Part shown: piece after piece, positions 32,227-48,238 of the stretch
How positions within the stretch are numbered: the first letter of the stretch is position 1
Layout: each line of letters opens with the position of its first letter
Origin: Bacteroidota bacterium
GTDB lineage: Bacteria; Bacteroidota; Bacteroidia; UBA8524
Direction of reading: 5' to 3'
Assembly (NCBI GenBank): GCA_006226545.1
Contig: SBGR01000085.1
Coordinates: 1-64,000, forward strand
Length of the DNA: 64,000 nucleotides
Notes under the pieces: generated by a model
The model's database searches: none
The model's input: the letters and a program-made list of their open reading frames with translations, nothing else
What the model was told of the DNA's origin: nothing
Translations under genes and position numbers: made by a program

Positions 32227-32262
32227 AAAAAAAAGAAAAGCCCCGGGCTAACCCGGAACTTT
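32227..32262 (-). terminator. Intrinsic terminator after the PorV-family gene
   Basis: On the minus strand, CCGGG and CCCGG pair around a 4-nt loop (32243-32256), flanked by G/C and followed by a T-rich run (A-run at 32227-32239 on the plus strand). It closes the receptor / secreted protein / PorV transcript. Confidence 0.85.
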
Positions 32263-32286
32263 CCTCGAAGATATTAATAATTCTTA

Positions 32287-33399
32287 TTAGTCTTTATCGG
32301 CAAGCAATAAACGCACGCCAAAAGTGTGAATTCCATTAAATGGATTGGTGCTGCGGTAAGCATAGTCAAATCCAAATTTATTGTCGTTCTTCTTTGACAA
32401 AGGAATATCAATGCTAAATCCACCGGCAAAACCAGTTAATGCAGTTGTTCTGCCTTCCGGTCCTAATTCTTGGAAGATGCCGTCTTCATAAGCATATCCT
32501 ACACGGAAATGAAGGAAGTTTTTGTAGGAATACTGTGTTCCCAAAACAAACTGGTTTTTGGAGAATGAATTCGATACAAAGTTTGCTGCAGCAGTCAATT
32601 TGTGGAAATAAGTATTGGAATCAGAATCCAAACGGAAATCGTAAGATGCTCCGATATTTACCTGTGACGGTAAGTTAAAAGTAGCAACACGGTTCTCTAC
32701 GGTATTATCGTAGTTGTTGTTTCCGTTGATTCTAGCTTTGATGGATAGACCGTCGCCACTGAACTTCATATCCGGACCCACGTTTCTTACGCTGATACCA
32801 AATTTGATGTCGTTTTGTTTGATGCTCTTTCTTCCCGGCTTGGTAGAGGTTTGGTACTGTACACCGGCGTCTAAAGCAAAACCTGAAGCAGTAACGTCTT
32901 CAATTGCTTGGTTTACCACCTTTACCTGCAAGCCACCACTGATAGAGTTAGAGAATTGCTTCGCATAACCCAATCCTAAATTGATGAACTGCGGGGAGAA
33001 AGTACCGATACCGCCATCCGGGTTCTCTACTGTTGTACGTTCAATTTCACCGAAACTGAAGTTGTTGATTGATAGAGACAATGCTCCACTTTCACCAACA
33101 CGTTGAGCGATACCAAAGCTATTGATATTGATACCGGTTGGAACTAACCAATTGGTACGTGAAAAAATAACTTCGGTTTTCGGGGTATAAGCCAATCCGG
33201 CAATGTTTAACTGTGAGGATTCCAAGCCGCGTACACCTGCAGTATTTACGCCATTCCAACCGGACAAACGTCCGTAGCTGTGAATAAGCAACTCGGTAGC
33301 ACCCGCTTGACCAGCACGGTCTGGATTACCTGCCTCTGCCTGAAAAACCAGGCAGGCGGCAGCTAATACGCTTAAACTTCTTTTTATAACTGTATTCAT
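32287..33399 (-). CDS. PorV/PorQ family outer-membrane protein
   Basis: A 370-residue beta-barrel protein with a signal peptide (cleavage near 23, FQAEAG). The N-terminal GATELLIHSYGRLSGWNGVNTAG and LSINNFSFGEIERTT patterns, and the terminal NPFNGIHTFGVRLLL, fit the PorV/PorQ (UPF0164) group. In T9SS, PorV is the shuttle that carries cargo from the translocon. This protein is the last of a three-gene set with a TonB-dependent receptor and a large secreted protein, 25 bp downstream of the latter. Whether it is the general PorV or a dedicated paralog cannot be told from sequence alone. Confidence 0.82.
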   Translation of the reverse strand: MNTVIKRSLSVLAAACLVFQAEAGNPDRAGQAGATELLIHSYGRLSGWNGVNTAGVRGLESSQLNIAGLAYTPKTEVIFSRTNWLVPTGININSFGIAQRVGESGALSLSINNFSFGEIERTTVENPDGGIGTFSPQFINLGLGYAKQFSNSISGGLQVKVVNQAIEDVTASGFALDAGVQYQTSTKPGRKSIKQNDIKFGISVRNVGPDMKFSGDGLSIKARINGNNNYDNTVENRVATFNLPSQVNIGASYDFRLDSDSNTYFHKLTAAANFVSNSFSKNQFVLGTQYSYKNFLHFRVGYAYEDGIFQELGPEGRTTALTGFAGGFSIDIPLSKKNDNKFGFDYAYRSTNPFNGIHTFGVRLLLADKD

Positions 33400-33423
33400 T
33401 GTTTCGTTCAGCTAAGGTTAATA

Positions 33424-36400
33424 TTAGAAGGAGTCGAGGTCAATCTGACGCATTACACCGAACCACTTCACTGTTTTCTCACCAAGATCACCGGCGTCGA
33501 TATGAACAATGTACATACCTGATGCAATTGGCACATTCACTTGGTTTTTCAAATCCCAATCAACATAAGTTGCTTCATCGTCTTTCTTAATCTGACGAAC
33601 CAATGTCCCGTTTACGGTAAATACGTTGATGGTGCACTTGTTAGGAAGGTTGGTGATTTTCACCCTGTTATCCAACTGGCTACCTTCATACTGAGAGTAA
33701 GCATAGTAAGGATTCGGAACAACTTTAATTAAATCCAACGCATTCTTACCTGCCTCTTGGCTCACCTGTGGAGCAATATCAGCAGTATTGAAGCGGTAGT
33801 ATGGCATATTATTGTTCTGAGGTGTTGCACCTGCGTCACCATTGTAAGTTCCGTATTGTCTCTTCACTTGCAGACGGATTTTAACCTCTGTTGGAGGAAC
33901 ACCATCTTTCATGGAGTAACCTTGAGCAATAATTGGAGGCATTACCCACATTGCTTGAGCAAATACACGACGGATTTCATTGCTGCTTCCAGTATTCAAT
34001 TTCGTCAAGTATTCATTTCCTTCATCGTATACCGGTCCGGTATAGCCTGCGAAGTTTTTGCGGCCCATCAAGTAGATATAATGTTTACCACCAATTGAAA
34101 CGTTAGAACCGGAAGTAAAGTTAGATGTAGGGTTCCAGATCATGTCGCTACCATTCTCACCAGATAAGTAAGAATCTTCACCGAACATGATGTTCATACG
34201 CTCACCTGTTTCCAAGTTGATTGCGTAACCTGGGAACCAGCTACGGCCGGTTTCGCCGTTTGTCATCGGTTTTAAGTCAATATCCAAAGAAGGGCTTCTT
34301 CTTGGGCTATGTTTAGGTGCATTACCTAAAGCCAAAGCTGGATCTTCAGACATTTCAAGTACAACGGCTCTAGTCCATTTTGTGCGATCTGGAGTTAATA
34401 CAAACTCAACACTTTGCAAGTCGGAAAGGCGGTTGTCGAAACCTACCTGGCTACCTGCGTAGGCAATACCATAAGTAGCGTTAGTTGGAGTTGAGTAGAT
34501 CGCTCTTGAAGCCAAAGCATAAGGAGCAATGATTCCACCTAAGATTCTTTCGTAACGTTCGAATGGATCCATAGACTCACCTCCGATATCGAAGTCGTCT
34601 GTATAATCTTTTGCGTTAAAGCTATTATTACGTCCGCGGTTACCTGAACGAATCCAGTTTAACCAAACAATGTTACCGTCGTTATCAGGTAAACCTGTTA
34701 ACCACTGTCGAGCATCATCTTGCCAGATAATTTCAGCATCGATAAATCCGTTCGCATCATCAAGTTCATTCAATGGGAAGCCTGGGCTAACCGCTTGAAC
34801 AACGCTTACAGAAATACCCCATTTCGCAATTACTTGTTCGTTTAGTACGTGGATATCACGGTCTGAGAATACGGTATCTTGATCTGTCGTATTGATTAAC
34901 ATCCAAACAGTTTCTTCATCAATCAATGAATCAGATCCTTGACCGGCTGTTAATGTTGAATCAATCATTCTGAATTCAAAGTCTGCTACCGGTACTTTTA
35001 ATGGATCAACCACTTTAATGTTTACCGGACCATGTCCTCCCAAGTAAATTGGAGTTTTAGCGACGTATGGTGCTCTTAAGATTTCAGAAATGGTTTCATT
35101 GGTTAAGCGAAGTGAAACGCCACCGTTTCCTTTACCTTCAATACGCTGAATACGCGGACCGTCTTCGTAACCAGCCACAGACTGAATACCACCTAATTTA
35201 GGTTCAGTTTTGTGTGGGATACCACGGTAAGTCACAACGTTCAAACGACCTTCCAAATATTGAACCGGTTCGTTTGGATCGTTCACACAAGTAGCGTAAG
35301 CCAAAACTACGTAGTAGTAGCTCTTGAAGTTTACAAGTTGGGTATTACCTGTAGCGAATAAGTCATCCTCTACTTTGAATGAGTGTTGAATACCTAAGTT
35401 GGCACCGTCTACTTTAATTTTTGGAATATTAACTCCAAGGTCCGGATCCAACTCTTGGTTGATTACTCGAGCATACTCATCTCTAAGGTCAACTTGGTAA
35501 GCTAGACGAGCTCTCTCAATGTTATCCAATTCACCGGTACTTACCAATGCATCGCGCAACTGGTAAATTTTATACCCTTGGAAACGGTAGTTCAACATAC
35601 CATTTGATCCTTCAGTTGAAGCAAAGAAGTTCTCAATGTCCTTCAATTTTCTAGTAGAATCAATCATGGTAATAACCAATTCTCTATCCAATTCTTGAAT
35701 AGACAAGGTTGGTGCTGGAGGACCATCAGGAATTTGGAACTTGTTATTGAAGAGTTTCTGTGCTTTATCTGATGCCAATTTCAAGAGGTTCAATGAACCT
35801 GTTGCACCACCGGTAGTGGTCTTAGCCCAAACAACACCCACTGTAACGTAGTTCACTGCACCTGGCTTCAGGTTAAATGGACCAGCTGATTGCAAGTAGC
35901 GACGGTCACCCGGTGTGTTACCGGCAGATTTCTCATGCCATGAACCCGGGTTGGTTGGATCGCCTGGGAACATGTAGCTGGTGATATTACCTTGTTGGTA
36001 ACCGTTACCTTGATCGGTGATGAATGAACCATCTTTCCAGATACCTCTTAAGTAACCATAGTAGTGTTCAGCAGTTACCGGGTTACCGATAACAGAGAAG
36101 TCGTTATTGTAGTAAACGAATTTGGTCAAACCAATTTCATTACCTGCTGAGTCACGTGGACCTTCAAAGAAGGTAGTACCAACTGAAGGTGGGTTCAAGC
36201 CGTAACCCAAGATACCTTCATCATCGTCATCACCGTTATAGCAGAAACCTAAATTTCTAGCGGTATCCACACCTACGTAGTCATCAGAATAGTTACCTAA
36301 ATCCGCGTCAACCCATTGTCCGAAATAGCAATTTCTAATTTCATCGAATGAACGGTTGGTGATTTTGGTTTTGTAGAAGGTCATGTTATTCACCTCGTCG

Positions 36401-37194
36401 TTTGTAGCGAAGGCAAATGCAATAGTCTGCAATTCAATACCAATTGGAATACCACCTGTTTCAGTGTGAATGTTTCCTTTGTCATTGTAAACAAAGAACA
36501 ACATTTGGTCAGGCTGATCTTTTGGTAAGTTTCTATCTGCCGGTCTGGTTGGATCCAAAATAGGGTAATCCATGTTGTTTGGATCATAAGCACCATCCCC
36601 GTCAGCATCAAAGAATGGAGCTAAGATTTTAGGTTCTCCATAAAACTGATCACCGTTACCTGGATAAGTAAGGATGTCATCAGGTGCTGTGCTGGCATCT
36701 CCTGCATCAACATAGTCTTCAATATCCTGACGTTGAACTTTCCAAATCTTGTCGTAAGCACGGCAACGGCTTTGGTCAATTTCTCCAGAGGTTGTATCCA
36801 ACGGACCAGGGAAATAATCGGAACCACCCTGACGGTAAGTCATGGCGGCCACCTTTAAGTTACCTCCTACGTCAACACCACCTACCCAGATTGCTCCGGC
36901 AAACATGGAGTTTTTACGGATACTTCCTTCGGTGGTAACCTTTGGAATCTCGTAGCGTGCTACTGAGTTCAAATCCCACCACATGTCGCCACCGTTCAAA
37001 ATACGGGCACGCACGTTGTTAATGTCAATATCTACTTGGAAAGTAGCCGGTAAACATCCGGCTGCCTTACGTTGTAGCAGATCGCTTCCTCCCTTTCTAG
37101 AGGAGCCGCCTATAATTTCTTTCGCAGAGCTGGTTTGAATACCGGCCGTCGCGAATAAGGCGAGTGCTAATCCTTTTATAATTATGCTTTTCAT
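33424..37194 (-). CDS. Very large secreted protein with FlgD-like C-terminus
   Basis: A 1256-residue exported protein that I do not recognise by function. The ATG at 37194 is chosen because a signal peptide (KSIIIKGLALALFATAGIQ) begins there; the TTG at 37215 is less likely. The bulk is Asp/Gly/Asn/Pro-rich beta structure with Ca-binding-like DADGDGAYDPN near 210. The C-terminal 90 residues (VVPNPYYAYSQYEG, then ITNLPNKCTINVFTVNGTLV and ASGMYIVHI) form a FlgD/T9SS-like Ig module, but the tail ends VKWFGVMRQIDLDSF. That is unlike the usual type A sorting tail. It sits between a TonB-dependent receptor and a PorV-family gene. Confidence 0.85.
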   Translation of the reverse strand: MKSIIIKGLALALFATAGIQTSSAKEIIGGSSRKGGSDLLQRKAAGCLPATFQVDIDINNVRARILNGGDMWWDLNSVARYEIPKVTTEGSIRKNSMFAGAIWVGGVDVGGNLKVAAMTYRQGGSDYFPGPLDTTSGEIDQSRCRAYDKIWKVQRQDIEDYVDAGDASTAPDDILTYPGNGDQFYGEPKILAPFFDADGDGAYDPNNMDYPILDPTRPADRNLPKDQPDQMLFFVYNDKGNIHTETGGIPIGIELQTIAFAFATNDEVNNMTFYKTKITNRSFDEIRNCYFGQWVDADLGNYSDDYVGVDTARNLGFCYNGDDDDEGILGYGLNPPSVGTTFFEGPRDSAGNEIGLTKFVYYNNDFSVIGNPVTAEHYYGYLRGIWKDGSFITDQGNGYQQGNITSYMFPGDPTNPGSWHEKSAGNTPGDRRYLQSAGPFNLKPGAVNYVTVGVVWAKTTTGGATGSLNLLKLASDKAQKLFNNKFQIPDGPPAPTLSIQELDRELVITMIDSTRKLKDIENFFASTEGSNGMLNYRFQGYKIYQLRDALVSTGELDNIERARLAYQVDLRDEYARVINQELDPDLGVNIPKIKVDGANLGIQHSFKVEDDLFATGNTQLVNFKSYYYVVLAYATCVNDPNEPVQYLEGRLNVVTYRGIPHKTEPKLGGIQSVAGYEDGPRIQRIEGKGNGGVSLRLTNETISEILRAPYVAKTPIYLGGHGPVNIKVVDPLKVPVADFEFRMIDSTLTAGQGSDSLIDEETVWMLINTTDQDTVFSDRDIHVLNEQVIAKWGISVSVVQAVSPGFPLNELDDANGFIDAEIIWQDDARQWLTGLPDNDGNIVWLNWIRSGNRGRNNSFNAKDYTDDFDIGGESMDPFERYERILGGIIAPYALASRAIYSTPTNATYGIAYAGSQVGFDNRLSDLQSVEFVLTPDRTKWTRAVVLEMSEDPALALGNAPKHSPRRSPSLDIDLKPMTNGETGRSWFPGYAINLETGERMNIMFGEDSYLSGENGSDMIWNPTSNFTSGSNVSIGGKHYIYLMGRKNFAGYTGPVYDEGNEYLTKLNTGSSNEIRRVFAQAMWVMPPIIAQGYSMKDGVPPTEVKIRLQVKRQYGTYNGDAGATPQNNNMPYYRFNTADIAPQVSQEAGKNALDLIKVVPNPYYAYSQYEGSQLDNRVKITNLPNKCTINVFTVNGTLVRQIKKDDEATYVDWDLKNQVNVPIASGMYIVHIDAGDLGEKTVKWFGVMRQIDLDSF

Positions 37195-37222
37195 GGTTTT
37201 TTTCTCCTTAATCAAATTGGTT

Positions 37223-40200
37223 TTAGAAATCCAGTTTAATGTTTAATCTGATTCTCCTTGGTAACCCGTAATAACCAGGATTAGCGAGTGCGGTATTGTA
37301 AAGGTCAACGAAAGACTCAGCGTTTACAGCTGCTTCTACTGCTTGACGACCGATTGCTGAGTTCAAGTATCCATCAGTTTCAGCAGATCCGGTGTATGGG
37401 TGGACAGCGCGGATGTTTTGAATATTGAGGAAGTTCTGAACCCATAGGGTGAACATCAGTCGGCCATATTTCACTTGACCATCTTTGTTTTTACCTAACT
37501 TAACTCTGTAGCCTTTGTAAATCTGCATATCGTTCTGCAATTGCCATGGTAAACGAGATCCGAAAGGTGTTCCTTTTATCGGACTTCTTACCACTACTCC
37601 TGCTTGAACGTTTGGAGTTGGATTTTGGTTGGCTGTGTATGGCAACCCAGAGAAAGCATTTAAGATCATACCGATACCGGCGTTCTCAAAAATCTTCTTA
37701 CCCTTTACGATTGGGCCATTGTAGTCTTTTCCACCTTGGTACTCAAAGAACAAGTTCAATTTCACGTTGTGACGGATATCGATGTTCAATGGGAATAGGT
37801 TACGCAAGTTTGGTTGACCAGCAGAAATCAAAGACTGTTGAGAGTTTGTTCCTGAACCGGTACCATCTGCATACTGCAAGGTATAGTTCGCATCCATGTT
37901 CAAGTTACCTGCGTCACGTAATTCGTATTCGATACGGAAGCCTTTAATGGTAGCAAAGTCAATGTTTGCGTAAGAAATATAGTGGTTAGGGTATGCGTAG
38001 TTGAAGCGGTAAGCCTGAATCAAGTTACGCTGCTCACGGTAGTTAGCGATTAAGCTCAAACCAGAGTTATCAGTCAATTTCTGTTTGAAACCAATCTCGT
38101 AATCGGTAGTAACCTGAGGTTTCAAATCCGGGTTATTCAACACGTTGGTTGGAGTATAACGCAAGTAATAGAAATCGTTGATTGGAGTGAAGATATTACT
38201 TGGGCGCTGAGCGATAACGTCGTAGTTAGCGAAGAAACGTGCTTCAGAACTAATTGGGAAGTCGAACCAAATACGTGGCAACACGTTGATTTGTGGCTCG
38301 TATGATTTAAACGATGCTGCACCTACAACTTCGTTGTCAGCATCAACCAAATAAGGCTGAATAGTACCACGTGTGGTTGCGTTAGCTAACAATACAGGGT
38401 CTTGAATTTGAATACCGTCTTTGTTATACCATACGTTGTTGTTACGGTAACCCACAATAGCAGTAGGGTTATTGGTATTGTTAACGTATACGTAGTAATC
38501 TTCGTTTACACCACCTGGATGTGAAACCGCATTACCGTTCAATTCTTTTACCTCACCAGCTGTGCGGATTGGGTAAAGTGAGAATGGATCTCTCAATACA
38601 GGTTGGTTCGCATCAAAACGCTCAATACGCAAACCGATACGGAAGATCAGGTCTTTAAAGGCAAATTTATCTTGAATAAATGCTGCAGTGTAAATTGGCA
38701 TGAAGGCACCAATTGTGCGGTTTTGAGGATCTTCAGTAAAGGCTTCGATGCTTTTCTTGCCACGAACCTTGTTGCCTAAGTAATCGTAACCGTAGTAAGT
38801 AACGATGGAGTTACCGTTGTTTAATAACTCATCAGCACTGAACATATCTAATCTGAAATCTGAAGGACTGTATGAGTTAACATCAATCAAAGTAGAGTTG
38901 TTCACCGGATTTCCGTAAACATCCACTTGGTTGTTCTCAATCAGGTACTTTCTAAAGTTTCTATCGAATGTAGATTGAGTGGTAGGATCGATAACTGCAT
39001 TAAAACGAACGGTATCTTTAAATACCCCGTTTTCGTCGTATTGGAAAATTGGATTGCTTTCATCTAAACGCATTCCATTACCAACTCTCGCAGACAACTG
39101 CCACATCAATTGCCACAAATTATTTGCACCAACGCCATAACCGCGAGAAACACGTTGCTCGTAGTAGATACCGAATTTCAAATCGTGGCCTTTGATACTA
39201 GCCTCACCTACTGCGTTCAATGAATACTGCTCGCTTTGCGACTTGCTATAACCTGAAATGATGGTACCCACGTTAGTCCACATGTTGGAGTAAATTCCGA
39301 TTGGGTTACCACCATTCACCAAACCTGCCTGGCTAGCTCTCAATTGAGAGAAGCTTTGTACACGACCATCAAGATAGTCGTAGTAGTTTGAGGTATAGTT
39401 AGCACGAATAGGGTTTTTGGTATTGGAACGATCGAAAGCGTAAAGTGTATCAGCGAAACCGTTTTGTTTGAAGTAGTTCTTCATCCAAATGGTATCTCCA
39501 TCTACAATGTATCTGTCGCCACCGCCGTTAGGACCATCACCTGTACCGGTGTATTCAAAAGATGGTCTGTAGTAAGTTTTGAATTGACCTACATAACCGT
39601 AATCAAAGATACGATCTTGGTGAACCGCGTCTTGTTGTGTTTGCCAAGTAGACTGGTATTGCAAACTCACTGAGTAGAATGCTTTGTCAACCAGACGCTT
39701 TTTAACTTCTTTTTTGCTTGGGTCTACCGGAGCAACCAACTTTTGAGTGAATGTTAAGTAACTCAATAAGCTGGTGGTAAGGGTTTGAGCGTTATTGCTA
39801 TAGTTGAAAAGTGAGTTTCTATAGCTATAACCTACGTTATTGATGTGGTTAAAAGTACCACCCATAATGATGCTGATGCGATCATTTGGTGCGAAGTTGA
39901 TATCACCTACTAAGTTCACTGAATAGGTAGGGATATTCAATTTGGCCGATACTTTCTCCAAATCATCTTGTGTAATGAACTCAGCACTAGGCACGAAACC
40001 TGAACCAATTGGAGAAAGACGCAATGGCGATTCTTCCAATTCTTTCAACTTCGCATCTTTAACTTTCCAGATTCCGATAGCGGATGGAGAGTTATCAGCA
40101 GAATAGTTGAAGTTACCAGCAAAGGAATAACCTAAGATGGCTCTTTCGTTTTGTTTGCCTTTGTTTTTAATGTACAACGGACCGGTGAAATAGGTCTCAA

Positions 40201-40948
40201 TCTGATTGAAATGGTACTTGTCGAACAAGCTAGAAGTAATTACTTCGACACCACCTCTGAAACGGGTTGATGGCGGAGGAGTAGTAATCGTAATCGCACC
40301 ACCGGTAAAGTCACCGTATTCAGCAGGGATACCACCGATAATTACGTTGGTCTGCCCAATACCGTTCTGTGGTAAGGAAGTTACGCCAATTACACGAACA
40401 CCGTTGATGTAGTAAGCCGTACCTGAAGAACGAGCTCCACGGAAGCTTGGTGTTCCTCCATCCAAACTAAATACACCTGAACCCAGGTTAGCGATGGAGT
40501 TTGTGTTACGGTTTGGTACTTTCTTGATTTGATCTCCATCCAAAGTTTTACCGTTATCGTCAGCCCGGATAATCGGGTTACGGTATTCTTTGATTTTAAC
40601 CTCATCAATTTGCACCCCTGCCTCGTCCATTTCAATGTCGAGGAAGGTAATTTGATCCGGTTTTACCAATACATCTCTGATTTCCACTTTCGCATATCCT
40701 ACGAAAGAGGCCAACACAGTATACTTACCCGGTACCAAGGCGGAAATGGAATATTTACCATCCAAATCACTAACCGCTCCACCCGCGTTATAACCATTCA
40801 ATTGAACGGCGATATTCACGAAATCAAGGGTTTGCTTGGTTTTTGCATCTTTTACAACACCACGGATTTCACCCCTCTGCGATTGCGCAAAGGCCGTAGA
40901 TGTAAGCAAAAGAAGAAAGATTAAACTTGCGTAAAGCTTCCTAATCAT
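37223..40948 (-). CDS. TonB-dependent receptor with carboxypeptidase-regulatory-like domain
   Basis: A 1241-residue outer-membrane receptor. Signal peptide to about 22 (TSTAFAQ). A carboxypeptidase-regulatory-like beta-sandwich follows (about 25-105, GEIRGVVKDAKTKQTLDFVNIAV), then the plug (about 120-235) and a long barrel ending RIRLNIKLDF, a terminal aromatic as in OM barrels. It has no TonB-box lipoprotein (SusD) partner next to it. Instead it leads a set with a 1256-residue secreted protein and a PorV-family protein, 28 bp apart. The imported substrate is unknown. It is among the largest receptors of the class. Confidence 0.92.
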   Translation of the reverse strand: MIRKLYASLIFLLLLTSTAFAQSQRGEIRGVVKDAKTKQTLDFVNIAVQLNGYNAGGAVSDLDGKYSISALVPGKYTVLASFVGYAKVEIRDVLVKPDQITFLDIEMDEAGVQIDEVKIKEYRNPIIRADDNGKTLDGDQIKKVPNRNTNSIANLGSGVFSLDGGTPSFRGARSSGTAYYINGVRVIGVTSLPQNGIGQTNVIIGGIPAEYGDFTGGAITITTPPPSTRFRGGVEVITSSLFDKYHFNQIETYFTGPLYIKNKGKQNERAILGYSFAGNFNYSADNSPSAIGIWKVKDAKLKELEESPLRLSPIGSGFVPSAEFITQDDLEKVSAKLNIPTYSVNLVGDINFAPNDRISIIMGGTFNHINNVGYSYRNSLFNYSNNAQTLTTSLLSYLTFTQKLVAPVDPSKKEVKKRLVDKAFYSVSLQYQSTWQTQQDAVHQDRIFDYGYVGQFKTYYRPSFEYTGTGDGPNGGGDRYIVDGDTIWMKNYFKQNGFADTLYAFDRSNTKNPIRANYTSNYYDYLDGRVQSFSQLRASQAGLVNGGNPIGIYSNMWTNVGTIISGYSKSQSEQYSLNAVGEASIKGHDLKFGIYYEQRVSRGYGVGANNLWQLMWQLSARVGNGMRLDESNPIFQYDENGVFKDTVRFNAVIDPTTQSTFDRNFRKYLIENNQVDVYGNPVNNSTLIDVNSYSPSDFRLDMFSADELLNNGNSIVTYYGYDYLGNKVRGKKSIEAFTEDPQNRTIGAFMPIYTAAFIQDKFAFKDLIFRIGLRIERFDANQPVLRDPFSLYPIRTAGEVKELNGNAVSHPGGVNEDYYVYVNNTNNPTAIVGYRNNNVWYNKDGIQIQDPVLLANATTRGTIQPYLVDADNEVVGAASFKSYEPQINVLPRIWFDFPISSEARFFANYDVIAQRPSNIFTPINDFYYLRYTPTNVLNNPDLKPQVTTDYEIGFKQKLTDNSGLSLIANYREQRNLIQAYRFNYAYPNHYISYANIDFATIKGFRIEYELRDAGNLNMDANYTLQYADGTGSGTNSQQSLISAGQPNLRNLFPLNIDIRHNVKLNLFFEYQGGKDYNGPIVKGKKIFENAGIGMILNAFSGLPYTANQNPTPNVQAGVVVRSPIKGTPFGSRLPWQLQNDMQIYKGYRVKLGKNKDGQVKYGRLMFTLWVQNFLNIQNIRAVHPYTGSAETDGYLNSAIGRQAVEAAVNAESFVDLYNTALANPGYYGLPRRIRLNIKLDF

Positions 40949-42948: not shown

Positions 42949-43473
42949 CTATTTAGTGCTCAAGCCTAATTTCTTGCGCACCGCATTCATCAAATTGTCT
43001 TTCTCTGACATATGCCAAAACAAATTTGAACCTGCATCTACAATGAAATCGTATTTCTGTTCCTTACTCACCTCTGCACATGCATTTTTCATTTTAGTGA
43101 TTAAAGGCTCCATTAATTTATTTTGGTATTCCATGAGCTCCTTTTGCGCATTCTGACTGAAAGTCTGAATGTTCTGGTACATGCTCTCCAATTCATTTTG
43201 AGCTAATTCCAAGTATGATTTTGGGATATCTGGTTTAGCTTGATCTCTTTGAAACTTGGTTGACTTAGCATCAAGTTCATCCTGCATGCTTGAGATAGTC
43301 TTTTTATACTCTTCACTACGTTTGTTAATTTTAGTTAGCACAGAATCATACTCCGGCATTTCTAACAATAAGCTATCCCCGTAAATGAAGCCGATTTTAG
43401 ACTGGGCTTCCGCAAAATTCTGCGCTGCAAAAATTACAAAGGCCAGCAGCAAGGCTCTCATCATTGTTTTCAT
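42949..43473 (-). CDS. Skp/OmpH family periplasmic chaperone (second copy)
   Basis: A 174-residue exported protein of the OmpH/Skp family, which shields unfolded outer-membrane proteins in the periplasm. The signal peptide ends near 24 (AEAQ). The core SKIGFIYGDSLLLEMPEY and a long helical, heptad-rich arm (about 45-125) match the trimeric Skp architecture. The ATG at 43473 is chosen; an upstream TTG at 43482 is less likely. It follows the first copy by 17 bp from this start (8 bp to the longer start) and ends before a terminator. Confidence 0.88.
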   Translation of the reverse strand: MKTMMRALLLAFVIFAAQNFAEAQSKIGFIYGDSLLLEMPEYDSVLTKINKRSEEYKKTISSMQDELDAKSTKFQRDQAKPDIPKSYLELAQNELESMYQNIQTFSQNAQKELMEYQNKLMEPLITKMKNACAEVSKEQKYDFIVDAGSNLFWHMSEKDNLMNAVRKKLGLSTK

Positions 43474-43490
43474 CGTTTGCAATATTACAT

Positions 43491-44078
43491 TTAATTCTTC
43501 GGTGATTCATCAGGTAAGTCAGGATCCCCTCCGCTATTGTTGGAGTTTCCCTTTTTATCTTCTGATGGAGTAATCCCCATTTCTTCTAACACTTCATCAC
43601 TCCGGTCGTATTTAGGGTTTGTAAATAACATACTCACCGAACCGGCCTTATCAAATATGAAATCCAGTGCATTGTCTTTTGCCACCTTCTGGATCGCATC
43701 AAAAATTTTATCTTGTATTGGCTTTATCAGTTCCTGTCTCTTTTTGAACAGTTCTCCGTTAACACCAAATTTATCTTTCTGAAACTTCGCTAAATCCTTT
43801 TCTTTTAAATCGATGGCACTCAGTCGTTGTTTCTTAACCTCGTCTACCAAGAAGATTTTCTCGGCTTCGTAATCCGATTTCAATTTCTGGATTTCAGCTT
43901 TCTTCTTTTCAATGTCCTTCTGCCATTCCTGTGCCAACAAGTCTAGCTGCTTCTGTGCACTTGCATATTCTGGCATCTTACCCAGAATATACTCTGTATC
44001 AACATACGCAAAACGTTGCGCTGAGGTTGGAGCCACGTAGCAAAAAATTGCCAAAAGAATTAAAACTATCTTTTTCAT
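43491..44078 (-). CDS. Skp/OmpH family periplasmic chaperone (first copy)
   Basis: A 195-residue exported chaperone of the OmpH/Skp family. Signal peptide to about 20 (APTSAQ). The conserved RFAYVDTEYILGKMPEYASA opening is followed by charged coiled-coil arms (about 40-120). The tail (SEDKKGNSNNSGGDPDLPDESP) is low-complexity and absent from the second copy. It is 12 bp downstream of bamA, so it should be translated from the same message and serve the BAM complex directly. Confidence 0.9.
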   Translation of the reverse strand: MKKIVLILLAIFCYVAPTSAQRFAYVDTEYILGKMPEYASAQKQLDLLAQEWQKDIEKKKAEIQKLKSDYEAEKIFLVDEVKKQRLSAIDLKEKDLAKFQKDKFGVNGELFKKRQELIKPIQDKIFDAIQKVAKDNALDFIFDKAGSVSMLFTNPKYDRSDEVLEEMGITPSEDKKGNSNNSGGDPDLPDESPKN

Positions 44079-44090
44079 GGTTAATAGGTT

Positions 44091-46607
44091 TTAAAATTGC
44101 TGGCCAATAAAGAAGTGGAATTGACCTTTGTTGGACGTAGGCGAGTATGGATTCGTATCAAAGCCATAACCGTAGTCCAAGCCAAGCAAACCAAACATAG
44201 GCAAAAATACACGAACCCCAGCACCTGCAGAGCGAAGCAGGTTAAACGGACTATAATCTTTGCCATTCAAGAAGTTGTTTCCAGCTTCAGAAAAGATATG
44301 TCCGTAAATAGTTGCTTGCGGATTTAAGCTTAATGGGTAACGTAGCTCAGCTGTAAACTTATTGTAGATGGTTCCGCCAATTTGGGTATTGGTCGCCAAG
44401 TTAATTGGAGTAACGGAGTTATCGCGGTATCCACGCAGGGCAACAAGTTCACGCCCATCTAGGTTAAAGCCGATCAAACCGGCACCACCCACATAAAAAC
44501 GTTCAAATGGAGAACTTCCAATAGCGGAATTAAAGTGACCTAAGAATCCGAATTTCGCTTGGGTAGCTAAAACCAATTTGTCAAATAGTGTGGTATACCA
44601 AGCCGCCTCAAACTTCCATTTGTGGTATTCAATCCAGCGGTATTTCTCTTGCTCAGTCGCATTGGAATAATCTTTACCGCTCAACAATGAGAACGGTGGT
44701 GTGATTTGTAGCGACAAAAGGAAGGAAGATCCACTTCGTGGGTAAATTGGCTGATCTACCGAGTTACGACTCAAGGCAATTCTCAAGTTAACGTTATCCG
44801 ATGTTCCGGAAGCGAATGAGAATACGCTATTAAAATTATCAAGTACGTATCGTTGGTAGGTCAATCCATAACTGATGGAGAAATAATCGTCAGGCCATTT
44901 CAATAAGCGACCTAAACCTACGGTAACACCTGTAATGGTAATCGACTGTCTATTGTCCTCTCCTTTTCTAACTCCATTTGTTTGAATAGAGCGGAAAACG
45001 CTTACCGAAAACGATTGCGGTCTTTTACCTCCAAACCATGGTTCTGTAAAGGAGGCATTATAAGATTGGAAATAAGTTCCATTAGACTGTGCACGAATAC
45101 TCAATCGCTGACCATCACCTGCTGGAATAGGGGTCCATTCTCCCCGTTTGAACATTTTCTTGGTTGAGAAATTGGTCAAGTTTAATCCCAGTGTTCCTAC
45201 TACAAACCCAGCTCCAAAACCTCCGGATAATTCAATCTGATCTGAAGGACGTTCTTCAACTGTGAATTCAATATCTACTGTCCCTGCTGTATAGTTCGGT
45301 TTTGGATTAACGTCAATCTTCTCTGGATCAAAGTAACCAAGCGCGGCCAATTCTCTAACAGACCTTTGAATGTCTGAACGACTGAATTTCTGCCCAGGTC
45401 TAATTCTTATCTCTCTGAGAATAACATAGTCGCTGGTTTTAGTATTGCCGCTAACTGTTACCTTGTTTACAATTGCTTGTGGGCCTTCCGTAATTCGAAT
45501 TTGAATGTCAATGCTATCATTTTCTACACGGACTTCAACCGGTACAATGTTAAAGAAGAGGTAACCATCATCCATGTAAATCGATGAGATGTCTGAGCTG
45601 GTTGGACTCATAAAGAGTCTACTTTCCAACCTGGCGATATCGTAAACGTCACCTTTTTTAATACCCAACAAAGTATCCAAGAACCCTGAACGGTACTTGG
45701 TATTTCCTTGCCAAGTGATGTCCCTAAAGTAATACTTAGCGCCTTCCTCAACCCAAATAGTGATACCCACACGGTTATCCGCCGTAGGGTAAATAGAGTC
45801 CTTAAGAATCTTGGCATCTCTATAACCTTTGGTATTGTAATAGGCCACTAAGCCTTTTTTATCTTCACGGTAAGCTTCTTCAACAAATTTGGAACGTTTA
45901 AAACGGAAGAGAAATTTCTCTTTAGTTTCGCCTAAGGCCCTTTTAAGTTGACGGTCTGTTAGGCCTTCATTTCCTTCAAACTGAATTTCTGATATTTTCG
46001 TTCTATTCCCCGGATCAACGTCAATAACAAGGATAACCATGTTTTTTCTGTCGGGAGCAGCAACAGTGCTGAGCGTCACTTTTACATTGAGGTAACCTTT
46101 ATCGATATAATGTGTCTTTACTTCATTTTCTGTTTTTTGAAGCAAATTTTCGGTCACCATATCCCCTCCTTGGAGGCTTAACTCTTCTCTTAAGTTTTTG
46201 GCTTTGGATTTCCGAAGTCCCCTAATTTCAAATTCATAGAGCCTTGGATTCTCCTTCACTTTAAAACGCAGGTAAACCTTGTTCTCTTTAATCTCATCCA
46301 AGATAACTTGAACGTCAGTAAACAGTTTTTGATCCCATAGCTTTTGAACTGCCATGGTTATTTCATCACCCGGAATGGTAATTTTTTGACCTGTATAAAG
46401 TCCTGTAAAAAGTTTTACAATGTTAGGGTCAAGGTAGTTAACCCCGTCTACTTGAATGCCGCCAATCTCGTATTTCTTTGGTGTTTGAAAATTAAGCGGG
46501 AGGTAAGGGTACAATTCCGTCTTTCCCGTGTCAAGCTGCGCATTGACGGAAAAGAAGGAGGTACAGAAAAGTAGGGCAAGGAGAATTCTCGCTAGTTTTT
46601 GCATCAT
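44091..46607 (-). CDS. bamA: Outer-membrane assembly factor BamA
   Basis: An 838-residue Omp85 protein, the core of the beta-barrel assembly machinery in the outer membrane. Signal peptide to about 24 (FFSVNAQ). Five POTRA domains occupy about 45-450 (for example KISEIQFEGNEGLTDRQL and IVNKVTVSGNTKTSDYVILREI). The barrel contains family loop segments near 470-838 and ends GQFHFFIGQQF with a terminal Phe. The start overlaps the uppS stop by 4 bp. Two Skp genes follow in the same operon. Confidence 0.96.
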   Translation of the reverse strand: MMQKLARILLALLFCTSFFSVNAQLDTGKTELYPYLPLNFQTPKKYEIGGIQVDGVNYLDPNIVKLFTGLYTGQKITIPGDEITMAVQKLWDQKLFTDVQVILDEIKENKVYLRFKVKENPRLYEFEIRGLRKSKAKNLREELSLQGGDMVTENLLQKTENEVKTHYIDKGYLNVKVTLSTVAAPDRKNMVILVIDVDPGNRTKISEIQFEGNEGLTDRQLKRALGETKEKFLFRFKRSKFVEEAYREDKKGLVAYYNTKGYRDAKILKDSIYPTADNRVGITIWVEEGAKYYFRDITWQGNTKYRSGFLDTLLGIKKGDVYDIARLESRLFMSPTSSDISSIYMDDGYLFFNIVPVEVRVENDSIDIQIRITEGPQAIVNKVTVSGNTKTSDYVILREIRIRPGQKFSRSDIQRSVRELAALGYFDPEKIDVNPKPNYTAGTVDIEFTVEERPSDQIELSGGFGAGFVVGTLGLNLTNFSTKKMFKRGEWTPIPAGDGQRLSIRAQSNGTYFQSYNASFTEPWFGGKRPQSFSVSVFRSIQTNGVRKGEDNRQSITITGVTVGLGRLLKWPDDYFSISYGLTYQRYVLDNFNSVFSFASGTSDNVNLRIALSRNSVDQPIYPRSGSSFLLSLQITPPFSLLSGKDYSNATEQEKYRWIEYHKWKFEAAWYTTLFDKLVLATQAKFGFLGHFNSAIGSSPFERFYVGGAGLIGFNLDGRELVALRGYRDNSVTPINLATNTQIGGTIYNKFTAELRYPLSLNPQATIYGHIFSEAGNNFLNGKDYSPFNLLRSAGAGVRVFLPMFGLLGLDYGYGFDTNPYSPTSNKGQFHFFIGQQF

Positions 46608-47347
46608 GAGCTGGTCTGTTCGCTGGTTTTTCCGAATCTTCTTTCTCTTTTTTGATAATCAAGTATTGCCCTATATAAATCATCCCTTCTAAAGTCGGGC
46701 CAAAGTATGTCAGTAAAGTAAAGTTCGCTGTAAGCAATTTCCCAAAGCAAGAAATTGCTAATGCGTAATTCACCACTTGTTCTGATTAATAACTCGGGTT
46801 CCGGGATATTATGAGTCGACAAATATTTAGTGATAAGTTGGTCATTGATATCATCTGATTTCAATTGTCCATTGAAAACATCTTCAGCTATTTGTTTAAC
46901 AGCTTTAGTGATGTCCCATTTGGCTGAATAACTCAAAGCGAGCACTAGGGTCATCCCATCATTTGAAGAAGTTTCTTTTATCGCATCATCTAAGTTCTTC
47001 CTGCAAGAATCCGGTAAGGACTCCAGATGACCTATGGCATCAAGGCGGATATTATTCTTATTGAGCGTTGGTAATTCCTTCTGAATTGTTTTAACCAAAA
47101 GGTCCATCAAGGCATTTACTTCTGCTTGTGGTCTTGACCAGTTTTCGGTTGAAAAGGCATATAGGGTTAAGTACTTTACTCCAAGCTCCGCACAAGCCTC
47201 AGCCGTTTCACGAACTGCTGTTACACCATGTTGATGTCCAAAAATTCGGAACTTACCTTTTCCCTTTGCCCACCTTCCATTGCCATCCATGATAATGGCA
47301 ACGTGTTGAGGCAACTTCTCCTTTACAATCTGTTCCTTTAAGTTCAT
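46604..47347 (-). CDS. uppS: Isoprenyl transferase (undecaprenyl diphosphate synthase)
   Basis: A 247-residue cis-prenyltransferase that makes the C55 lipid carrier for peptidoglycan and O-polysaccharide. The catalytic Asp is Asp21 in IIMDGNGRWAKGKG. The TLYAFSTENWSRP and LLIRTSGELRISNFLLWEIAYSEL-type motifs are intact (given in part). The ATG at 47347 is chosen over a TTG at 47356. A strong promoter precedes it, so it heads the uppS-bamA-skp-skp transcript. Its product supports the polysaccharide genes further right. Confidence 0.96.
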   Translation of the reverse strand: MNLKEQIVKEKLPQHVAIIMDGNGRWAKGKGKFRIFGHQHGVTAVRETAEACAELGVKYLTLYAFSTENWSRPQAEVNALMDLLVKTIQKELPTLNKNNIRLDAIGHLESLPDSCRKNLDDAIKETSSNDGMTLVLALSYSAKWDITKAVKQIAEDVFNGQLKSDDINDQLITKYLSTHNIPEPELLIRTSGELRISNFLLWEIAYSELYFTDILWPDFRRDDLYRAILDYQKRERRFGKTSEQTSS

Positions 47348-47362
47348 TACGGACAATCAGCG

Positions 47363-47393
47363 CAAATTTAAAACGCGAAAATAAGCTTTCAAG
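47363..47393 (-). promoter_or_regulatory. Promoter of the uppS-bamA operon
   Basis: Minus-strand TAAATTTG (47370-47363) fits TAnnTTTG, with CTTG (47393-47390) 19 bp upstream. The ATG is about 16 bp after the box. Confidence 0.7.
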
Positions 47394-47404
47394 CTAAACT
47401 ATAC

Positions 47405-48238
47405 TCAGTAATTTGAAAAGCCGCAACGAATTGGGGTAAATCGATAAGATAATGTGATTCCAGCCATTAGGTACCAATCCTTGGCATTTGGGTTTCCACG
47501 AAGGTCTCCGGAATCTGCTTTTCTTTCAAAAGGCTCCACTCCCGCTGACCGATCCGACAATTGCACGGCCGTATTGCCTTGCTTTTCCAAAAGAAGTGCA
47601 AAATCGGGATACGTTTTACTTACATCATCCAAGTAATCCGTAAAGGTTTTTCTAAATCCTATTTCAGCACCTAGAACCCAATTCTCCGTGAATGCAATTC
47701 TATACCCAATACCCAAAGGGATTGAGATTCCGGCAAGAAGGTAATTTCTTCCCCCATCCAACTTCTGACCTTCCGTGCCATAACGATGCAGTTCTACGAT
47801 TGTCCCGTTATACCGTGTTTTCGGATTAAAATAAAACACATTTAAACCGGTAAAAACATAAGGGGTAGACTTGTGTTCTCGCGGACGGATTCCAAACTTT
47901 CTATAATTGAATTCAAGTCTATTATCCAATTCCCAAATAGGCGAGAAGAAATCTAAGTTTCGATTTTTGTACTCCGAAAAATTGTAATCACCTCCACTAA
48001 TTTTAGCGTAGTTGATACCGAAGCGGTATGACCACGTTGAAGTGAAGTTATATTTACCAAAAGCTCCTGCACTAAAATTCGTTTCTGACGGTACAATTAC
48101 CCGGGCTAAATCGCCGGCATAATTAGACCCACCAAGGAAACCACCCACCTCCCATTTCTGAGCAGATACGGTCTGAATCATTAAAATACAGAAAAAGCTT
48201 AAAAGCCTAAAACGAATAGCATTTAACACGATTTCCAA
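47405..48238 (-). CDS. DUF6089 (PorG-type) outer-membrane protein, copy 3
   Basis: A 277-residue beta-barrel protein of the DUF6089 group, to which the T9SS component PorG of Porphyromonas belongs. Signal peptide ends near 27 (MIQTVSAQ), then KWEVGGFLGGSNYAGDLAR, the family's N-terminal GGSNY-GDL motif. Further shared elements are YVFTGLNVFYFNPKTRY, SIPLGIGYRIAF and the FRKTFTDYLDDVS block. The start is TTG (48238) or GTG (48229). It overlaps the stop of copy 2 by about 32 bp and is the copy nearest uppS. Confidence 0.82.
   Translation of the reverse strand: MEIVLNAIRFRLLSFFCILMIQTVSAQKWEVGGFLGGSNYAGDLARVIVPSETNFSAGAFGKYNFTSTWSYRFGINYAKISGGDYNFSEYKNRNLDFFSPIWELDNRLEFNYRKFGIRPREHKSTPYVFTGLNVFYFNPKTRYNGTIVELHRYGTEGQKLDGGRNYLLAGISIPLGIGYRIAFTENWVLGAEIGFRKTFTDYLDDVSKTYPDFALLLEKQGNTAVQLSDRSAGVEPFERKADSGDLRGNPNAKDWYLMAGITLSYRFTPIRCGFSNY

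Follow-up and report, generated by a model that had tools for sequence, protein, structure and literature searches.

We identified a set of three genes, encoding a TonB-dependent receptor (T), a giant, putatively secreted protein (G), and an outer membrane barrel of the PorV/PorQ family (P), which is an ancient unit kept together across Bacteroidota. The set was analyzed in a window of 64,000 nucleotides from a Bacteroidota genome (assembly GCA_006226545.1, contig SBGR01000085.1, positions 1 to 64,000). We lean towards the view that the three proteins make up one outer-membrane surface system, in which G would be exported by the T9SS, anchored by P, and used by T as a SusD-like partner.

The gene set in the window

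The three genes lie on the minus strand in the transcriptional order T-G-P, with intergenic gaps of 28 and 24 bases. Their strand and lengths agree with the first-pass annotation, which was made from the sequence alone: T (37223..40948) has 1241 residues, G (33424..37194) has 1256, and P (32287..33399) has 370. G starts with an ATG at 37194, which is preceded by AAGGAG, and an alternative TTG at 37215 would give a protein of 1263 residues. The terminator that had been proposed after the set was also found, as a strong terminator-like hairpin on the same strand (32233..32266) with a 15-pair stem, a 4-base loop, and a T run. The promoter proposed before the set fared less well and could not be demonstrated. 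The sole sigma-70-like match at this position overlaps the start codon of T, the 93-base gap upstream of T has only one weak Bacteroidota -7-like TATTTTG, and the 10 promoter-like sites found in the region are fewer than the 18.7 expected from shuffled sequences. Close to the triplet, at 42949-48238 of the window, are genes for two Skp-like proteins, BamA, UppS, and the T9SS protein PorG (168 bits).

The assignment of T to the TonB-dependent receptors, already made in the first-pass annotation, is supported by its domain matches and by homologues found at the same position in relatives. Its layout consists of a Sec signal peptide, a CarboxypepD_reg-like domain (residues 28-118, above the cut-off at 1.2e-14), a plug (residues 135-217), and a barrel. 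The plug match is weak in the window (18 bits vs a cut-off of 23.9), and it is above the cut-off in several relatives, one of which has a barrel match at 5e-22. The set has no SusD, as had been noted: G has neither a SusD match nor a lipobox, and there is only one weak SusD_RagB match in the whole genome.

Conservation across Bacteroidota

A scan of contigs with G gave 249 relatives, of which 80 were kept as Bacteroidia loci. These loci have 72 P genes, with G directly upstream in 71 cases and both G and T in 67. The T-G-P arrangement is interrupted at contig ends, by a frameshift, and in one case by a T located about 1 kb away. Across the phylum, the profile of G matched 105 of 297 genomes, and we took 40 such regions, chosen by G alone. 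There, G and T are directly upstream of every P gene found (38/38). The first-pass annotation had held that a joint role would be contradicted if the genes were rarely adjacent in relatives; they are adjacent almost without exception in both sets. The genes share a strand, follow the order T-G-P, and are separated by gaps with a median of about 22 bases. Apparently incomplete loci mostly reflect the end of a contig, a frameshift (L044), or a separate copy of G, and locus L132 of the phylum-wide set has a complete T-G-P.

The neighborhood of the triplet is much less stable. The greA gene is found near it in 41/44 Bacteroidia loci and HIT in 39/44, but this is the case in only 5/40 regions of the wide set, and only 2/44 relatives have bamA within the 10 kb flank that was retrieved. 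Since T, G, and P remain linked while their flanks differ, the three genes have been held together as their context changed.

A few loci have other arrangements of G. In L068 and L069, a second copy of G directly follows P (order T-G-P-G), while in L039, L072, and L078 G occurs without T and P nearby.

The giant, putatively secreted protein and its CTD

G has the features of a T9SS substrate, namely a Sec signal peptide (identified by visual inspection of the sequence, without lipobox) and a C-terminal Ig-like CTD with matches to PorZ in both profile and fold. The CTD covers about residues 1152-1256 (33424..33741, minus strand), is FlgD/Ig-like, and has the tail KWFGVMRQIDLDSF. The C-terminus, described in the first-pass annotation as FlgD-like and ending in WFGVMRQIDLDSF, matches FlgD weakly. 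The best profile match of this region is PorZ (4.5e-9), and its score with the type A CTD model (TIGR04183) is 22.2 bits, just under the cut-off of 23. Distant G-type members fall on either side of this cut-off, and PorZ is the best match of the CTD in 6 of the 7 distant members tested. A tail of the type KWxGVMRxxDLDSF is conserved in most of the Bacteroidia members.

The AlphaFold2 model of G (residues 57-1256, mean pLDDT 84.7) is rich in beta structure. Its best match among solved folds is PorZ (5m11), over 120 columns. The following matches are partial and have high rmsd, concern carbohydrate-active beta-sandwich domains of the GH94/GH116 type, and are too weak in this predicted structure to give the body of G a function. 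A sequence search of G and of P against the PDB gave no match. The N-terminal module of G, about residues 54-507 (35674..37035, minus strand), recurs in a short protein with an ordinary type A CTD in the same genome (G000:C6). In this genome of 3.45 Mb, the type A CTD model has 132 matches, which is a very large set of T9SS cargo for such a size. Between residues 296 and 325 of G, six acidic residues (D296, D298, D304, D305, D310, and D325) are invariant across 28 sequences of the wide set and could be a metal site.

P is a distinct subfamily of PorV-like barrels

The placement of P in the PorV/PorQ family by the first-pass annotation holds, with 132.5 bits for NF033709 (cut-off 90). Its scores are well below the cut-offs of the equivalog models for PorV (NF033710, 67.9 of 250 bits) and PorQ (NF033711, 70.8 of 220 bits), and the NCBI models label it only as a PorV/PorQ family protein. 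The structural model of P (pLDDT 85.0) is predicted to have a PorV-like, FadL-type barrel fold. Its best match in the PDB is the PorV chain of a substrate-bound T9SS translocon (8gl6_F, E 1.4e-15, TM 0.67), followed by a second PorV (6h3i_F, TM 0.66), with FadL and BamG ranking lower. The P proteins of the orthologous triplet form their own clade (100/99) in a tree built from 108 proteins of the PorV family. This clade is separate from those of PorV (100/99) and PorQ (100/100), and the barrels of other T-G-P operons are in a neighboring clade. The genome of the window encodes its own PorV, next to porU on another contig, and its own PorQ (on contig C22), as well as SprA and PorU. It has a fourth PorV-family protein (G000:C33:44250-45149; L089 8155-9159) that is not PorV, PorQ, or PorV2 by the NCBIfam cut-offs and whose gene has no CTD gene directly upstream.

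The triplet duplicates and diverges as a set

We listed and paired the PorV-family genes and the G-type CTDs of 16 genomes. A PorV-family gene is found at most 400 bases downstream of 60 of the 75 G-type CTDs, a count that leaves out one further pair (G013:C3). The control, made with the 150 top-scoring ordinary type A CTDs listed in four genomes, has no such gene directly downstream (0/150), a contrast that describes two CTD classes and not a count over all CTDs, since the G-type profile was trained on members of the triplet. In two loci, L171 and L201, two consecutive PorV-family genes follow the gene of a CTD protein.

In 40 regions around PorV-family genes, we found 41 P-type genes, of which 26 belong to complete T-G-P operons and the others include PorV, PorQ, and PorV2-like genes. 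The triplets total 29 in four genomes, and the unit has been duplicated whole in distant lineages. Among these 29, the within-genome distances of T, the CTD, the body of G, and P are correlated (Spearman 0.60-0.79, permutation p 0.0005), which indicates that the parts of the triplet diversified together and were not swapped.

Distribution of T9SS and SusD

SprA is present in all the genomes that have G (105/105), vs 228/297 overall, an association (hypergeometric 3.8e-16) that is inflated by relatedness and is partly phylogenetic because a single family accounts for many of the SprA-negative genomes. Among 25 triplet genomes tested for SusD_RagB, 12 have no match. The SusD-rich genome G162 (61 matches) also has a triplet, showing that the triplet does not simply replace SusCD.

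A putative surface receptor complex

Several precedents bear on how the three proteins may work. In Porphyromonas gingivalis, PorQ anchors PorZ (PMC5562754), and the CTD of PorZ is not removed (PMC5562754, PMC10202324). In Flavobacterium johnsoniae, substrates with a type B CTD each depend on a cognate PorP/SprF barrel, whose gene is usually downstream; the barrel also sets the final location of its substrate (PMC12618676). By analogy, G and P appear to combine these two precedents, a PorZ-like CTD and a PorV-family barrel paired one to one with its substrate. G would reach the periplasm by Sec and then pass through the outer membrane via the T9SS (SprA), where its PorZ-like CTD would be taken up by its own barrel P instead of the general shuttle PorV. 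P would then retain the uncleaved CTD and thereby anchor G at the cell surface, much as PorQ does with PorZ. Stable anchoring is suggested by the PorZ/PorQ analogy, and cleavage of the CTD by PorU could still occur. Once at the surface, over or beside T, G would capture a ligand that T imports, a role equivalent to that of SusD for SusC. Since a TonB-dependent receptor is the third constant member of the set, a surface receptor complex with G in the role of SusD is its most likely function. We infer both the physical complex and the uptake; the latter depends on T being a TonB-dependent receptor, whose plug score in the window is below the cut-off. At the level of comparative genomics, the best-supported reading is the one proposed in the first-pass annotation, in which the secreted partner is handled by the PorV-type protein, given the linkage, the duplication of the whole set, the co-occurrence with SprA, and the PorV fold.

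The same data can be read in other ways. P could be a dedicated secretion shuttle only, which would collect G at SprA and hand it on; PorU would then process G into a released or LPS-attached protein and T would import what G makes available. PorV itself is a transient shuttle (PMC5562754), and P has the predicted PorV fold. However, the G-type CTDs resemble that of PorZ, which stays in place (PMC10202324), and the genes for P and G come in one-to-one pairs, as in type B systems (PMC12618676), instead of one shuttle serving all cargo. We therefore find this role of P unlikely. The orthologous single-copy triplet might otherwise be an envelope-building or attachment module like PorZ/PorQ, where G would handle a cell-surface glycan and the part of T would be secondary. 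The single orthologous copy per genome in most Bacteroidia loci would suit such a module, as would the PorZ-like CTD of G, the weak match of part of G to carbohydrate-active beta-sandwich folds, and the vicinity of bamA, skp, and porG in the window. Yet, other lineages have many diverged copies whose G bodies vary, which fits a ligand-specific system, and the bamA neighborhood is conserved in few relatives, which makes us regard the module as quite improbable.

We also considered membership in the BAM machinery, with P as a BamG-like FadL barrel and the set as a part of the adjacent complex. BamG is a FadL-family barrel that holds a surface protein (PMC12611786, PMC12578637), and bamA is 3 kb from T in the window. 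We rejected this explanation, whose probability we take to be minimal: the model of P fits PorV (TM 0.66-0.67) better than BamG (TM 0.45-0.49), bamA is rarely near the triplet in relatives (2/44), and BamH is a lipoprotein, whereas G has a T9SS CTD.

Significance and comparison with known systems

Returning to the proposed receptor complex anchored by P, we see about an even chance that, in addition to type A (PorV) and type B (PorP/SprF), the T9SS has a third combination of signal and carrier, represented by this set. Here, a PorZ-type CTD would be permanently retained by a dedicated barrel of the PorV family, and it would be used phylum-wide for receptor complexes in which a T9SS-exported protein replaces the SusD lipoprotein. 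If so, the presence of up to about 20 PorV-family genes in many Bacteroidota would be explained, the cognate pairing of CTD and barrel would hold for the type A fold as well as for type B, and the T9SS would take part in assembling TonB-dependent uptake complexes. The set also makes testable the suggestion (PMC10202324) that a dedicated PorV-like barrel shields the CTD from cleavage. We found no published description of the set in the literature, in a search that had most subscription journals and all preprints outside its scope, and the triplet looks like an undescribed alternative to SusC/SusD uptake pairs.

The triplet shares traits with four known systems and differs from each of them. As in PorZ/PorQ, a PorZ-type CTD is carried by a putative surface protein whose likely holder is a barrel of the PorV/PorQ family, but G has no similarity to PorZ beyond the CTD, P is not PorQ, and a TonB-dependent receptor is added. 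The type B substrates with PorP/SprF similarly have a dedicated barrel encoded directly downstream of each of them, whereas the CTD of G has the type A/PorZ fold, P belongs to the PorV family, and a TonB-dependent receptor is encoded upstream. P has the predicted fold of PorV and the CTD of G is FlgD/Ig-like, as in PorV and its type A substrates; however, PorV carries every type A cargo protein and is produced in excess (PMC5562754, PMC12618676), while P is tied to one partner and is in a separate clade. Finally, the set resembles SusC/SusD in that a TonB-dependent receptor is encoded with a presumed surface partner, with many diverged copies in some genomes, but G is neither a lipoprotein nor SusD-like and has a T9SS-type signal and a barrel of its own.
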